Assembly: GCA_035283685.1 (NCBI GenBank)
Contig: DATETJ010000004.1
Span: 1-64,000 of the forward strand
Source of the DNA: Candidatus Bathyarchaeia archaeon
GTDB taxonomy: Archaea; Thermoproteota; Bathyarchaeia; Bathyarchaeales; Bathyarchaeaceae
Reading direction: 5' to 3'
DNA length: 64,000 nucleotides
This document shows positions 28,518-34,209 of the stretch, piece after piece (within the stretch, counting starts at the first letter, position 1; each line of letters opens with the position of its first letter). Both the position numbers and the translations under genes were made by a program. The notes under the pieces are model-generated. The model made no database searches. It saw only the letters and a list, made by a program, of their open reading frames with translations, and was not told the DNA's origin.

Positions 28518-29540
28518 TTAGATCATCCAAATATTGCGTTTCAGGTCGTCGAATATTTGGGAGCAGCAGAGTGATGAGAACGATGTTTCCATGTGCATGG
28601 ATTCTGCTAGTTTTATGGCTTGTTCGGCTGGAAAGGCTATGGCGTTTACTCCAGCTTTGACAGCCATCATGTCTGTTTCTGTTTTGTGTTTTCCTTTTGG
28701 TCTCATGCAGCCCAATACCAAGGGAGTTTTAGGCAACATCAAACGCGAAGCAACCAACACTCTGGCAACATCTGCGGGCTTGGGCGGCGTGGCTGTTTCC
28801 ATCATGGTGCCATGAATCGGCATAAGAGCAATTACTATGACAGCGCTGGGCGAATATTTGGCAATCATCTCTAAGGCTTCAAACTCGCCCTTCAACCTGC
28901 CATAATGCAAGCCTACAAGCACGTGAGGCACCAACGGAATCCCAGACTCATGCAACACTCGCAATGATCTGTCATAATCAGCCACAGAAACATTGAGCTG
29001 ATAAATCTCCCGAATCGTCTCATCCGAACCAATAATGTCAATTAAAGCCGCGTCCACACCCGCATCCGCAAGCCGCCCAGCCAACTCACTGTCAATGACG
29101 CCTGTGTGCACCACAACAGTCAAGCCGAGAGTTTTCTTCACCTCAGCAATCGCGTCAACAAACCGCTCCAAAGGAACAGAACCATCAGGCAAGCAGCCAC
29201 CGCTAATGAGACAGCCCGAGCCACCCTTCGCCTTAACATCCTTACACACTTCAACAAGGCGCTGAGGCGACAGCGCAGGCAACATCGTGTTCAAAACCTT
29301 GCCGCCACAATGCTTACACTTCAACGCGCAAGAAGAGCCTGTCACAGATATGGAAGGAAACGCCGAGGGCGATGAACAAAAACGCTCAGACCGGTAATAC
29401 ATGAAGCTCGGCGCATAAAACCGAATCCGCCTACCAAAACTCCTCCAACTAACCTCACGCGCCTCAGCCAACCATTGCTCAAGCGCCTTATCATCAGCCT
29501 TAAGCACACTCTGAAGCTTATCTCTCCAAGTCTGGGTCAT
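28518..29540 (-). CDS. Radical SAM protein, possibly LipS-type lipoyl synthase component
   Basis: About 340 residues from ATG 29540 (GTG 29552 in frame). The radical SAM cluster motif CALKCKHCGG gives C71, C75, C78. GGCLPDGSVPLE and VVHTGVID follow as typical barrel strands, and VLGCMRPKGKHKTETDMMAV lies near the end. A second, biotin-synthase-like radical SAM gene lies at 31286. Archaea carry a two-protein lipoyl synthase (LipS1/LipS2) of just this kind, so that role is possible. I see no lipoylated protein gene nearby, so the assignment is tentative. Confidence 0.75.
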   Translation of the reverse strand: MTQTWRDKLQSVLKADDKALEQWLAEAREVSWRSFGRRIRFYAPSFMYYRSERFCSSPSAFPSISVTGSSCALKCKHCGGKVLNTMLPALSPQRLVEVCKDVKAKGGSGCLISGGCLPDGSVPLERFVDAIAEVKKTLGLTVVVHTGVIDSELAGRLADAGVDAALIDIIGSDETIREIYQLNVSVADYDRSLRVLHESGIPLVPHVLVGLHYGRLKGEFEALEMIAKYSPSAVIVIALMPIHGTMMETATPPKPADVARVLVASRLMLPKTPLVLGCMRPKGKHKTETDMMAVKAGVNAIAFPAEQAIKLAESMHMETSFSSLCCSQIFDDLKRNIWMI

Positions 29541-29716
29541 GAGCAAATGCACGCCTGTGAAATGTTGAGTAAATATTAAGGCAGCATTATTAACCTACTC
29601 CTTGGGTCATCATAAACAATGTATGGCTTGCTTTCACTGAAGCGCAGAGACAAGACCGAGAGAAAAATGAAACCAACGTCTGTGCTAGGTATTCGTGTTC
29701 AATGAAAACTATGGCA

Positions 29717-31228: not shown

Positions 31229-31285
31229 TCAACGTCTAGTTCTTAGAATGACCAAGACTTGCTCCAATCAAGAAAAAAAGCGAAC

Positions 31286-32293
31286 ATGAGCACTGAACAG
31301 GATGTGCCAGAGAAAATCCGAGTTTCAGTAGGCTCCGCCATAGTACTCGGACTGCTAAAAGGCAAGCTGGACGCACCGCCCACAACAATCTACATGCTCA
31401 CTTACCGAGAGGGAAAATGCCTCGCCAACTGCGGCTTCTGCCCCCAAGCCAGAACAAGCTCAAGCCGAGCTGACATGCTGGCACGCGTAACATGGCCACC
31501 TTTCCAGACCACGCAGGTCATAGAAAAAATAGCATCATCAGCAGAGAGAGGCACAGTGAAACGCGTGTGCATCCAAGCATTAAACTATCCCACAGTCCAC
31601 AAAGACCTAACACACCTCACAAGACTGATTCATTCAAGCTCAAACGTGCCAATTTCCCTATCCTGCCCACCATTCACTAAGGCACAGTTCAAGGAATTAG
31701 CGGAGGCACGCGCAGACCGCATCAGCATAGCATTAGACGCAGCCACAGAACAACTCTTCAACAAAGTCAAAGGCGCAGAAACACAAAGCCCCTACCACTG
31801 GAAACAACAACACCAAGCCCTAAAAGAAGCCGTTGAAATCTTCGGCAAAAACCAAGTCTACACACACCTCATCGTAGGCTTAGGAGAAACAGAAAAAGAA
31901 ATAATCCATGCCATTCAGCAGTGCACAGATTCAGGCGTCTACCCAAGCCTATTTGCGTTCACACCAATCTCAGGCACATCATTAGAAAACATGCATCAAC
32001 CACCAATCGAAACCTACAGACGCATCCAACTGGCACGACACCTTATAATCCATGGAAAAACACGCTACGAAAACATGAAATTCGACCCGGAACAGCGCAT
32101 CAAAGACTTCGGCATACCAAAAACCCAACTACACCAAGTCATACAAGAAGGCACACCATTCTGCACATCAGGATGCCCCGAATGCAACAGACCATACTAC
32201 AACGAACGACCAGGCGGACCAATGTACAACTTTCCAAGGCAACCGTTGCCAGATGAAGTAAACGAAATAACGAGACAGCTAAACGAAGGATAA
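31286..32293 (+). CDS. Biotin-synthase-like radical SAM protein, possible LipS component
   Basis: 335 residues from ATG 31286 (TTG 31259 in frame). Radical SAM motif CLANCGFCPQAR gives C45, C49, C52. Near the C-terminus CTSGCPECNRPYYNERPGGP carries extra cysteines that could hold a second cluster, followed by MYNFPRQPL. This combination is typical of archaeal BioB-like proteins that were shown in some archaea to form a lipoyl synthase with a partner radical SAM protein. The partner could be 28518-29540. The plus strand is very G-poor. It lies 5 bases upstream of the PolB-like gene. Confidence 0.75.
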   Translation: MSTEQDVPEKIRVSVGSAIVLGLLKGKLDAPPTTIYMLTYREGKCLANCGFCPQARTSSSRADMLARVTWPPFQTTQVIEKIASSAERGTVKRVCIQALNYPTVHKDLTHLTRLIHSSSNVPISLSCPPFTKAQFKELAEARADRISIALDAATEQLFNKVKGAETQSPYHWKQQHQALKEAVEIFGKNQVYTHLIVGLGETEKEIIHAIQQCTDSGVYPSLFAFTPISGTSLENMHQPPIETYRRIQLARHLIIHGKTRYENMKFDPEQRIKDFGIPKTQLHQVIQEGTPFCTSGCPECNRPYYNERPGGPMYNFPRQPLPDEVNEITRQLNEG

Positions 32294-32298
32294 ACTAA

Positions 32299-34209
32299 TT
32301 GGACACATGGTACCTGCTTGACGCCCAAGCCCAAGGCAGCACCGTCAGCCTAAGATTCTTCAACCCAGCAACAAACGAACTCAAAGAATTCAAAGACAGC
32401 TCCTACAAACCTTACTTCCTCCTTCCCCACCCCCTCAGCCCAACAGACCAAGAAAACATACGCAGCCTCAACGCAGAGACCGAAATCGTCAAAAAAACCG
32501 ACCTGTACACAAACGAACCCAAAGAAGTAACCAAAATCACAGTTTACAAACCCGAATTCCTCAAAAAAGCCACACGAAACCTCCAACACGCCTGGGAAAC
32601 CGAAATCGAATTCACCCACAGCTACGCCTATGACCACGGCTTGATATTCGGCGCACAACACAATATGACACAGGACAACCATTTCACACCAGTGCTAAAC
32701 CTCACACCAGACAAGAAAACCAAATTCAACACCCTCTACGCACACATCAAAAACACAGACCCGCCAAAATACGCTCAACTCGAACGCTGGTTCATAGTGC
32801 TCAACCAACCCGTCCCACAAATCAAACCAGACACCATGGACATAAGCGAAGAAACCAGCCCTGAAAAATACTTCTCAACTTTCACACTGTCAAAAATAGC
32901 CAACCTGCCCATCCCATTCACCTATGCCACACGAGGCGTAAGCGCATGGCTAAAATCAATAATACACGACTACCTCAGAAGACACAACATCCTCATACCC
33001 ACATCCATGGAGCTTCGCAGAGGCTTAGAAACCCACGAAGTCCCCGGCGCCTTAACCATAACACCCAAAAGCGGAGTATACTTCAACACCGTAGTCGCAG
33101 ACTTCGAAAGCCTCTACCCCAGCTGCATAGACAGCTACAACCTATCCTACGAAACAGTCGACTGCAACCACAACGAATGCAAAACCAACACCGTATCTGA
33201 CACAGGACACCACGTATGCACAAAAAGAAGAGGATTCCTAGCCGCACTCATAGGCGCACTCAAAGACCTACGCATCCACTGGCTCAAACCACAAACAAAA
33301 GACCCAACACTCACAGAAACCCAACGCCACCAAGCCGAAACCACAGCCAAAATGCTAAAACTCCTAACCGTGTCAAGCTACGGCGTCTCAGTACGAATCC
33401 ACGGACTAGCCTGCCCCCCACTAGCTGAATCAATCACAGGCTACGGACGCTGGGCACTACAAACCGCCTGGAACATAGCTGAACAACAGGGACTACACCC
33501 AGTCTACGGAGACACAGACTCACTCTTCCTAGAAAACGCACCCATAGAAAAGGTTGAAACCCTCACAAAAACAGTCAAACAACAACTGCACTTAGACTTG
33601 GCAGTTGAAAGACACTACTCGATCTGCGTCCTATCAGCAGCCAAAAAAGCCTACTTCGGCATCCTACCCGACGGCACCCCCGACCTCAAAGGACTAACAG
33701 CCATAAAATCAAACGCACCAAACTACATCCAAAACGTGTTCAAAAACTGCGTCAAACAACTCAGCACTGTCAAGAACGCAGAAGAGTATGAGCACGCAAA
33801 AGCGAGAATAGCCACAATGGTTGAAAAAACCATCAAAGACCTACGCGAGCGAAAGTTCGTACTCAAAGACATGATTTTCTCGGTGAAACTCTACCATGAC
33901 CCACGAGAGAAATTAATGTCCAAAGTTCTGCCCCAACCCTATCAATGTGCCAAACAACTCATCGACTCTGGCAAGCAAGTGAAGGAACGAGACACAGTCC
34001 ACTTCATCAAAGTCAAGCCCTTTACGTATCAAGGAAGAGAGTTCACAGTAAAACCCGCTGACAACGTCAACAACGTCTCAGAAGTCAACGTCGAAGACTA
34101 CACGCGCAACCTGACCACGGCGTTGAACCAAACCTTCACGCCCATGGGCATAAACTTCAAAACAGAAACCGAACCAAAAATAACCGACTGGCTAGGCAAA
34201 CAGAGCTAA
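32299..34209 (+). CDS. Family B DNA polymerase paralogue apparently lacking the exonuclease domain
   Basis: 636 residues starting at TTG 32299. The N-terminal PolB domain is clear (WYLLDAQAQGSTVSLRFF, KPYFLLP). No ExoI DxE motif is visible before motif A, VVADFESLYPS (D268). Motif B region KMLKLLTVSSYGVS lacks the usual Asn, and motif C is YGDTDSLF (D405, D407). In ordinary archaeal PolB motif A lies near residue 400, so about 140 residues are missing exactly where the proofreading domain should be. Spacing from motif A onward is normal. A non-proofreading, perhaps repair or translesion, enzyme is inferred. Confidence 0.8.
   Translation: MDTWYLLDAQAQGSTVSLRFFNPATNELKEFKDSSYKPYFLLPHPLSPTDQENIRSLNAETEIVKKTDLYTNEPKEVTKITVYKPEFLKKATRNLQHAWETEIEFTHSYAYDHGLIFGAQHNMTQDNHFTPVLNLTPDKKTKFNTLYAHIKNTDPPKYAQLERWFIVLNQPVPQIKPDTMDISEETSPEKYFSTFTLSKIANLPIPFTYATRGVSAWLKSIIHDYLRRHNILIPTSMELRRGLETHEVPGALTITPKSGVYFNTVVADFESLYPSCIDSYNLSYETVDCNHNECKTNTVSDTGHHVCTKRRGFLAALIGALKDLRIHWLKPQTKDPTLTETQRHQAETTAKMLKLLTVSSYGVSVRIHGLACPPLAESITGYGRWALQTAWNIAEQQGLHPVYGDTDSLFLENAPIEKVETLTKTVKQQLHLDLAVERHYSICVLSAAKKAYFGILPDGTPDLKGLTAIKSNAPNYIQNVFKNCVKQLSTVKNAEEYEHAKARIATMVEKTIKDLRERKFVLKDMIFSVKLYHDPREKLMSKVLPQPYQCAKQLIDSGKQVKERDTVHFIKVKPFTYQGREFTVKPADNVNNVSEVNVEDYTRNLTTALNQTFTPMGINFKTETEPKITDWLGKQS

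Follow-up and report, generated by a model that had tools for sequence, protein, structure and literature searches.

The window, a stretch of 64,000 nucleotides from contig DATETJ010000004.1 of a Candidatus Bathyarchaeia archaeon, encodes a DNA polymerase of the PolB1 type in which the exonuclease domain is absent and not just divergent. The gene, located on the + strand at positions 32299 to 34209, is intact and open throughout, starting with a TTG codon at 32299, ending with a stop at 34209 and specifying 636 amino acids. On balance, we favor the reading that this is a PolB1-derived polymerase which lost its whole exonuclease once, long ago, has been kept beside PolB1 and is recruited by PCNA as a non-editing, Dpo2-like extender.

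Loss of the exonuclease domain

A Pfam scan of the 636-aa protein detected DNA_pol_B (PF00136; 6.7e-38, residues 214 to 615, 131 bits against a cutoff of 23) and no domain besides it. Family-B identity is thus supported by PF00136 together with motifs A, B and C, with the exception that the motif B Asn is a Val. The best NCBIfam model, PRK05761 DNA polymerase I (NF004417), scored 375 bits and did not reach its cutoff of 780; a second curated PolB1 equivalog, NF004419, with 349.7 bits, likewise stayed below its cutoff of 1285. The best PDB match found with phmmer was Saccharolobus solfataricus PolB1 (1s5j), which aligned in two pieces (residues 16-186 to 1s5j 30-201 and residues 198-620 to 1s5j 401-826) and left about 200 of its residues unmatched. 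An earlier note on this DNA had taken the protein for a PolB paralogue to be compared with Pfu PolB. The former holds, but the closest solved relative is the Sulfolobus PolB1, not the Pfu-type PolB3.

Alignment of 36 exonuclease-less proteins with 71 PolB1s placed the gap at residues 248-451 (about 204 residues) of the genome's own PolB1, a protein of 900 aa. The gap starts exactly at the ExoI motif of that protein, ALDIEV, and ends just before the palm, so that some 195 to 205 residues from ExoI on are replaced by about 10, the deletion junction lying at residues 177-187 (positions 32827 to 32859, + strand). The earlier note was therefore right that the domain is gone, whereas its estimate of about 140 missing residues was too low relative to PolB1. 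As it had also stated, the ExoI DxE is absent, the corresponding region reading MDIS in the window genome and LGI in most orthologues. The Pfam exonuclease model PF03104 gave no match in any of the six exonuclease-less proteins tested; among the controls, it scored 57.8 bits on the genome's own PolB1, 89.6 bits on a PolB3 and 19.9 bits, a weak value under the cutoff, on the genome's own PolB2.

An intact though divergent exonuclease domain, the outcome that the earlier note had named against its own claim, was not found by structure prediction. The AlphaFold2 model, built from a 32-sequence alignment (mean pLDDT 90.7, pTM 0.85), showed a retained N-terminal domain of strands and helices with a pLDDT of about 90 (residues 1-131, positions 32299 to 32691, + strand; also covered by the HMMER alignment to 1s5j 30-201). 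Between this domain and the palm there were only two helices, at residues 137-168 and 177-201, and the ribonuclease-H-like exonuclease fold was not present in the model, whose best Foldseek matches were archaeal PolBs (E of about 1e-31). A 3'-5' exonuclease domain with ExoI to ExoIII, by which PolB1 is recognized, is hence missing according to PF03104, the deletion of about 200 residues and the predicted structure.

PolB1/Dpo1 (1s5j) remains the nearest known protein by sequence and by tree, and shares the N-terminal, palm, fingers and thumb domains as well as motifs A and C. However, PolB1 has a full exonuclease, the motif B Asn and the Tyr of the YxGG/A motif, all of which the exonuclease-less family lacks, and the family is found in genomes that also have a PolB1. 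Family-B enzymes without proofreading are also found in eukaryotes, namely, Pol zeta, which is a translesion extender, and Pol alpha, but these retain an inactivated exonuclease domain (PMC7544198), whereas in the present family the domain is gone. Mavirus and polinton-like-virus pPolBs are family-B polymerases without an exonuclease domain (PMC11071308); they differ in being protein-primed and viral, in carrying terminal-protein and vOTU domains and in belonging to an unrelated lineage. Literature schemes recognize archaeal PolB1 to PolB3 (PMC4104785, PMC7544198), and in open-access main texts we found no exonuclease-less PolB1 family and nothing of the kind for Bathyarchaeia, exonuclease loss being reported there for PolB2 and some viruses.

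The polymerase active site and the C-terminal tail

Motif A (DFESLYPS, positions 33100 to 33123, + strand) carries the catalytic Asp268 and the steric-gate Tyr273, and motif C (YGDTDS, residues 403-408, positions 33505 to 33522, + strand) is the same in every aligned row. The spacing from A to C is 137 to 138 residues in this protein and in the genome's own PolB1 alike. The position of motif A at residue 268, the normal spacing and the retention of the metal-binding Asp residues, which are invariant across the family, all agree with the earlier note. Across 32 diverse exonuclease-less sequences, Asp268, Tyr273, Lys354, Asp405, Asp407, Lys450 and Tyr452 were invariant, the catalytic Asp and Lys residues, Tyr273 and the K450-x-Y452 motif being unchanged down to about 40% identity.

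Two positions set the family apart. Motif B (KLLTVSSYG, positions 33358 to 33384, + strand) keeps Lys354, but its conserved Asn, already reported as replaced, is Val358; Val occupies this position in 36/36 exonuclease-less proteins and Asn in 71/71 PolB1s. At residue 248, the Tyr of YxGG/A is replaced by Val in the remnant VPGA (residues 248-251, positions 33040 to 33051, + strand); Val is present here in 94% of the 36 family members, compared to Tyr in 96% of the 71 PolB1s, a change in keeping with the absence of the exonuclease partner.

In RB69 polymerase, the equivalent of the motif B Asn, N564, helps to hold the triphosphate of the incoming dNTP, and Y567, the equivalent of the motif B Tyr, touches the minor groove (PMC3564110). 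Since the Asn is Val in all members, catalysis could be weak. In the engineered TNA polymerases Kod-RS and Kod-RSGA, a disabled exonuclease is likewise combined with a change of the equivalent Asn (N491S), and these enzymes show less DNA synthesis and more preference for TNA (PMC9738464). They are, however, laboratory-made and carry Ser instead of Val, and they serve as an analogy only for the effect of the Asn change. In the two Hermodarchaeota members (L089:2500-4479 and L090:4555-6519), motif B reads SSGG for SSYG, with Gly instead of Tyr at the position of RB69 Y567.

The Asn-to-Val change in every member, along with the loss of other residues fixed in PolB1, could also indicate that the protein is an inactive or very weak scaffold, for instance a regulatory partner of PolB1 or PCNA kept for DNA or protein binding. 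Eukaryotes indeed have inactivated PolBs, such as the C-terminal half of Pol epsilon (PMC7544198). We nevertheless consider this quite improbable: one would expect a scaffold to have lost some of Asp268, Asp405/Asp407, Lys354, Tyr273 and K450-x-Y452, which are all invariant, and PolB2, formerly called inactivated, turned out to be active (PMC8764526).

The protein ends in a peptide resembling a PIP box, ITDWL (residues 628-632, positions 34180 to 34194, + strand). The pattern [LIM]xx[WFY][FLIMVT], which is without the usual Gln, was found within the last 16 residues of 34/36 family members; the Hermodarchaeota proteins, which make up the remaining two, have different C-terminal tails that contain Q and L. 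These tails are longer and include QKRLIDY or QKQLLDY. From the conservation of the motif, we infer that the family may bind PCNA through its tail.

A PIP-like tail and an otherwise conserved active site would suit a polymerase of the ordinary, accurate kind for repair or gap filling as well, working for example on excision-repair patches so short that the lack of proofreading is tolerated. Gap-filling polymerases of the PolX family are likewise known to lack exonucleases. This explanation appears unlikely to us, as the Asn-to-Val change in the pocket and the SSGG of the Hermodarchaeota proteins suggest relaxed selectivity.

Distribution, phylogeny and selection

The family profile was searched against 251 Bathyarchaeia genomes and found the exonuclease-less polymerase in 51 of them (52 genes). 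The score gap was clean, with at least 593 bits for exonuclease-less proteins versus at most 396 bits for PolB1s, and nearly all members measured 600 to 680 aa, the few partial copies lying at contig ends or sequence gaps. In a phylum-wide sample, 21/398 genomes were positive, all from the order of the window genome; the fuller sample of the class added members in three additional families of that class. The named records with such a polymerase belong to Candidatus Bathyarchaeota and to two Hermodarchaeota (Asgard) metagenome-assembled genomes, both of which have an upstream gene of similar sequence.

In a tree with PolB1, PolB2 and PolB3 as references, Sulfolobales Dpo2 not being among the sequences, the exonuclease-less proteins formed a single clade (100/100) on a long stem. 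In line with the phylogeny proposed earlier as a check, this clade stood beside PolB1: the two were joined at 100/99, apart from PolB2 and PolB3, and the exonuclease-less clade lay outside the cellular PolB1s (PolB1 side 93/83). PolB2 formed a separate clade (100/99) containing none of the exonuclease-less proteins, and the Hermodarchaeota were the first branch within the exonuclease-less clade. The simplest reading of the tree is one ancient loss of the exonuclease, although its exact depth is unsure owing to long-branch effects. Given the deep branching, a recent origin by duplication of the genome's own PolB1 is rejected.

The same tree might be read further, as a deep archaeal family-B branch common to TACK and Asgard and at least as old as the radiation of cellular PolB1. 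After one loss of proofreading, its pocket would have been remodelled (Asn to Val, and Tyr to Gly in Hermodarchaeota) to give a dedicated mutagenic polymerase or one for non-canonical substrates. We regard this as a minority possibility; if true, eukaryotic Pol zeta and the engineered TNA polymerases would have a natural counterpart in this family.

Some groupings within the clade cross host families, for example G006 (f1) with G162 (f6). Genome G010 holds two divergent exonuclease-less polymerases (L051:5127-6830 and L034:6950-8845), one from each main subclade; the second copy is short (568 aa), has a scrambled C terminus and lies on a 6.9-kb contig. Transfer or duplication has thus also taken place. 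The patchy distribution and the groupings across host families suggest some horizontal transfer and might point to a replicase of a mobile element or virus captured by the chromosome. No exonuclease-less member was found, however, in the viral, phage or plasmid records searched, and viral PolB1-like proteins retain the exonuclease region; with a single exception, those included in the tree fall inside host PolB1. Moreover, the neighbors of the exonuclease-less genes are chromosomal metabolic genes. A viral origin, to which we attach very little likelihood, was rejected on the grounds that the viral, phage and plasmid records searched yielded no member and that viral relatives keep the exonuclease.

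Some single polymerases are of separate note. The PolB1-like polymerases encoded on the IMG/VR viral contigs L176, L177, L178, L179 and L181 have the exonuclease region, and the location of L176, L177, L178 and L181 inside host PolB1 clades suggests host-to-virus transfer. In L183, the viral PolB ORF spans 1159 aa, of which about 360 are additional residues at motif B, between profile positions 343 and 375, and possibly represent an intein. Genome G001 encodes a very divergent PolB of 787 aa (L170:524-2884) that lacks a recognizable motif C, contains an ExoI-like motif, DVEI, and sits on a long branch close to PolB2.

In seven family pairs, dN/dS was 0.09 to 0.19; the family is under purifying selection. 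An artefact of assembly or gene modelling, or a decaying pseudogene, has in its favor an in-frame stop in two class-level copies and one copy that runs into Ns. This is scarcely credible and is refuted by these dN/dS values and by dozens of independently assembled genomes in which the deletion falls at the same point. The claim of the earlier note that the enzyme is active gains support from the same dN/dS range and the invariant catalytic Asp and Lys residues, which suggest a functional polymerase site.

Gene context and proposed role

The gene next to the polymerase had been described as a radical SAM gene in operon with it. It encodes the lipoyl synthase LipS2 (positions 31259 to 32293, + strand; NF053743, 4.5e-106, 354.6 bits against a cutoff of 270), whose stop lies 5 bp ahead of the polymerase TTG on the same strand, and the two genes are probably co-transcribed. 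Its partner LipS1 is encoded at positions 28518 to 29552 on the - strand (NF053742, 2e-73, 247.3 bits against a cutoff of 230). Within the window, the polymerase is flanked by LipS2 and by genes for a DUF1295/PEMT-type methyltransferase-like protein, a nucleotidyltransferase-like protein and a metallophosphatase. A sigma-70 promoter scan gave matches at chance level only, as is to be expected in an archaeon.

Lipoate genes are the commonest neighbors of the family, and the order LipS1-LipS2-polymerase is repeated in families f1 and f7. Almost every f6 genome has an LplA-like lipoate-protein ligase gene immediately downstream of the polymerase and convergent to it on the other strand (loci L041, L043, L256, L257, L259, L261, L262, L265, L267, L275, L276 and L282), in most cases following a series of sugar-nucleotide-type genes. 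The linkage is thus real here but holds for only part of the family: lipoate neighbors were not seen in f5, f9, f16, f24, f27 or Hermodarchaeota, some of whose contigs are short. Since LipS2 linkage is missing from several branches, it gives no evidence on the function of the polymerase. A functional link to lipoate synthesis was not adopted, given its absence from these five families and Hermodarchaeota; the neighborhood is conserved without evident functional meaning.

Among the neighbors of the family, we found no consistent linkage to DNA-repair genes, which counts against the role proposed below. Mre11/Rad50-like genes, judged from sequence, lie about 2.9 to 5.4 kb downstream of the polymerase start in G006 (L037), and in G236 the region upstream of the polymerase contains a gene for an ERCC4-domain nuclease (L271:5081-5815); both recur too rarely for linkage.

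The genome of the window also encodes PolB1, PolB2 (773 aa), PolY, PolD and PCNA, so the exonuclease-less enzyme is an addition and not a substitute. Replacement of PolY was ruled out by its co-occurrence: PolY is present in about 36/51 carriers and 94/200 non-carriers, counts which ignore kinship.

The closest functional precedent is PolB2/Dpo2 of Sulfolobales (540 to 582 aa), which is also a small archaeal family-B enzyme without proofreading that exists beside a replicative PolB1. Dpo2 lacks an exonuclease yet is active, serving as an extender during translesion synthesis; the 555-aa enzyme of S. islandicus is devoid of exonuclease activity, elongates ends that are mismatched or paired with a lesion, and is a cause of mutagenesis induced by DNA damage (PMC8764526, PMC7390963). 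In PolB2, however, the exonuclease domain shows variable decay (PMC11791011) and motif C is substituted at its first Asp (HGIVDS in the genome's own PolB2), whereas in the exonuclease-less family the excision is clean and YGDTDS is invariant. The PolB2 operon partners (inactivated RadA and PPB2, arCOG07300) were neither flanking in the window nor recurrent in the family neighborhoods. Thus, the protein is not a PolB2, from which it differs in motif C, in its place in the tree and in its neighboring genes; by analogy, it is most likely a PolB1-derived counterpart of the exonuclease-deficient PolB2/Dpo2.

Most likely, the protein is an active polymerase that does not proofread and serves in translesion or repair synthesis; it is probably error-tolerant and specialized for damaged DNA. 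Its PIP-like tail would bring it to PCNA where forks have stalled or repair has left gaps, and it would there carry out template-directed synthesis that it cannot edit, extending mismatched or lesion-containing primer ends that proofreading polymerases would excise, before handing back to PolB1 or PolD. Such a mode of action would resemble that of Sulfolobus PolB2/Dpo2 at most by analogy. The low-fidelity or repair role suggested in the earlier note is a plausible one, strengthened by this precedent (PMC8764526, PMC7390963) and by the Asn-to-Val change.

Having lost the domain cleanly and, on the simplest reading, only once and long ago, while retaining an intact polymerase site alongside a proofreading paralogue in the same cell, this offshoot of PolB1 represents a natural experiment on how a replicative polymerase turns specialized. 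Its members are also small family-B enzymes that are by nature free of an exonuclease and altered in the nucleotide pocket, ready for expression and testing.
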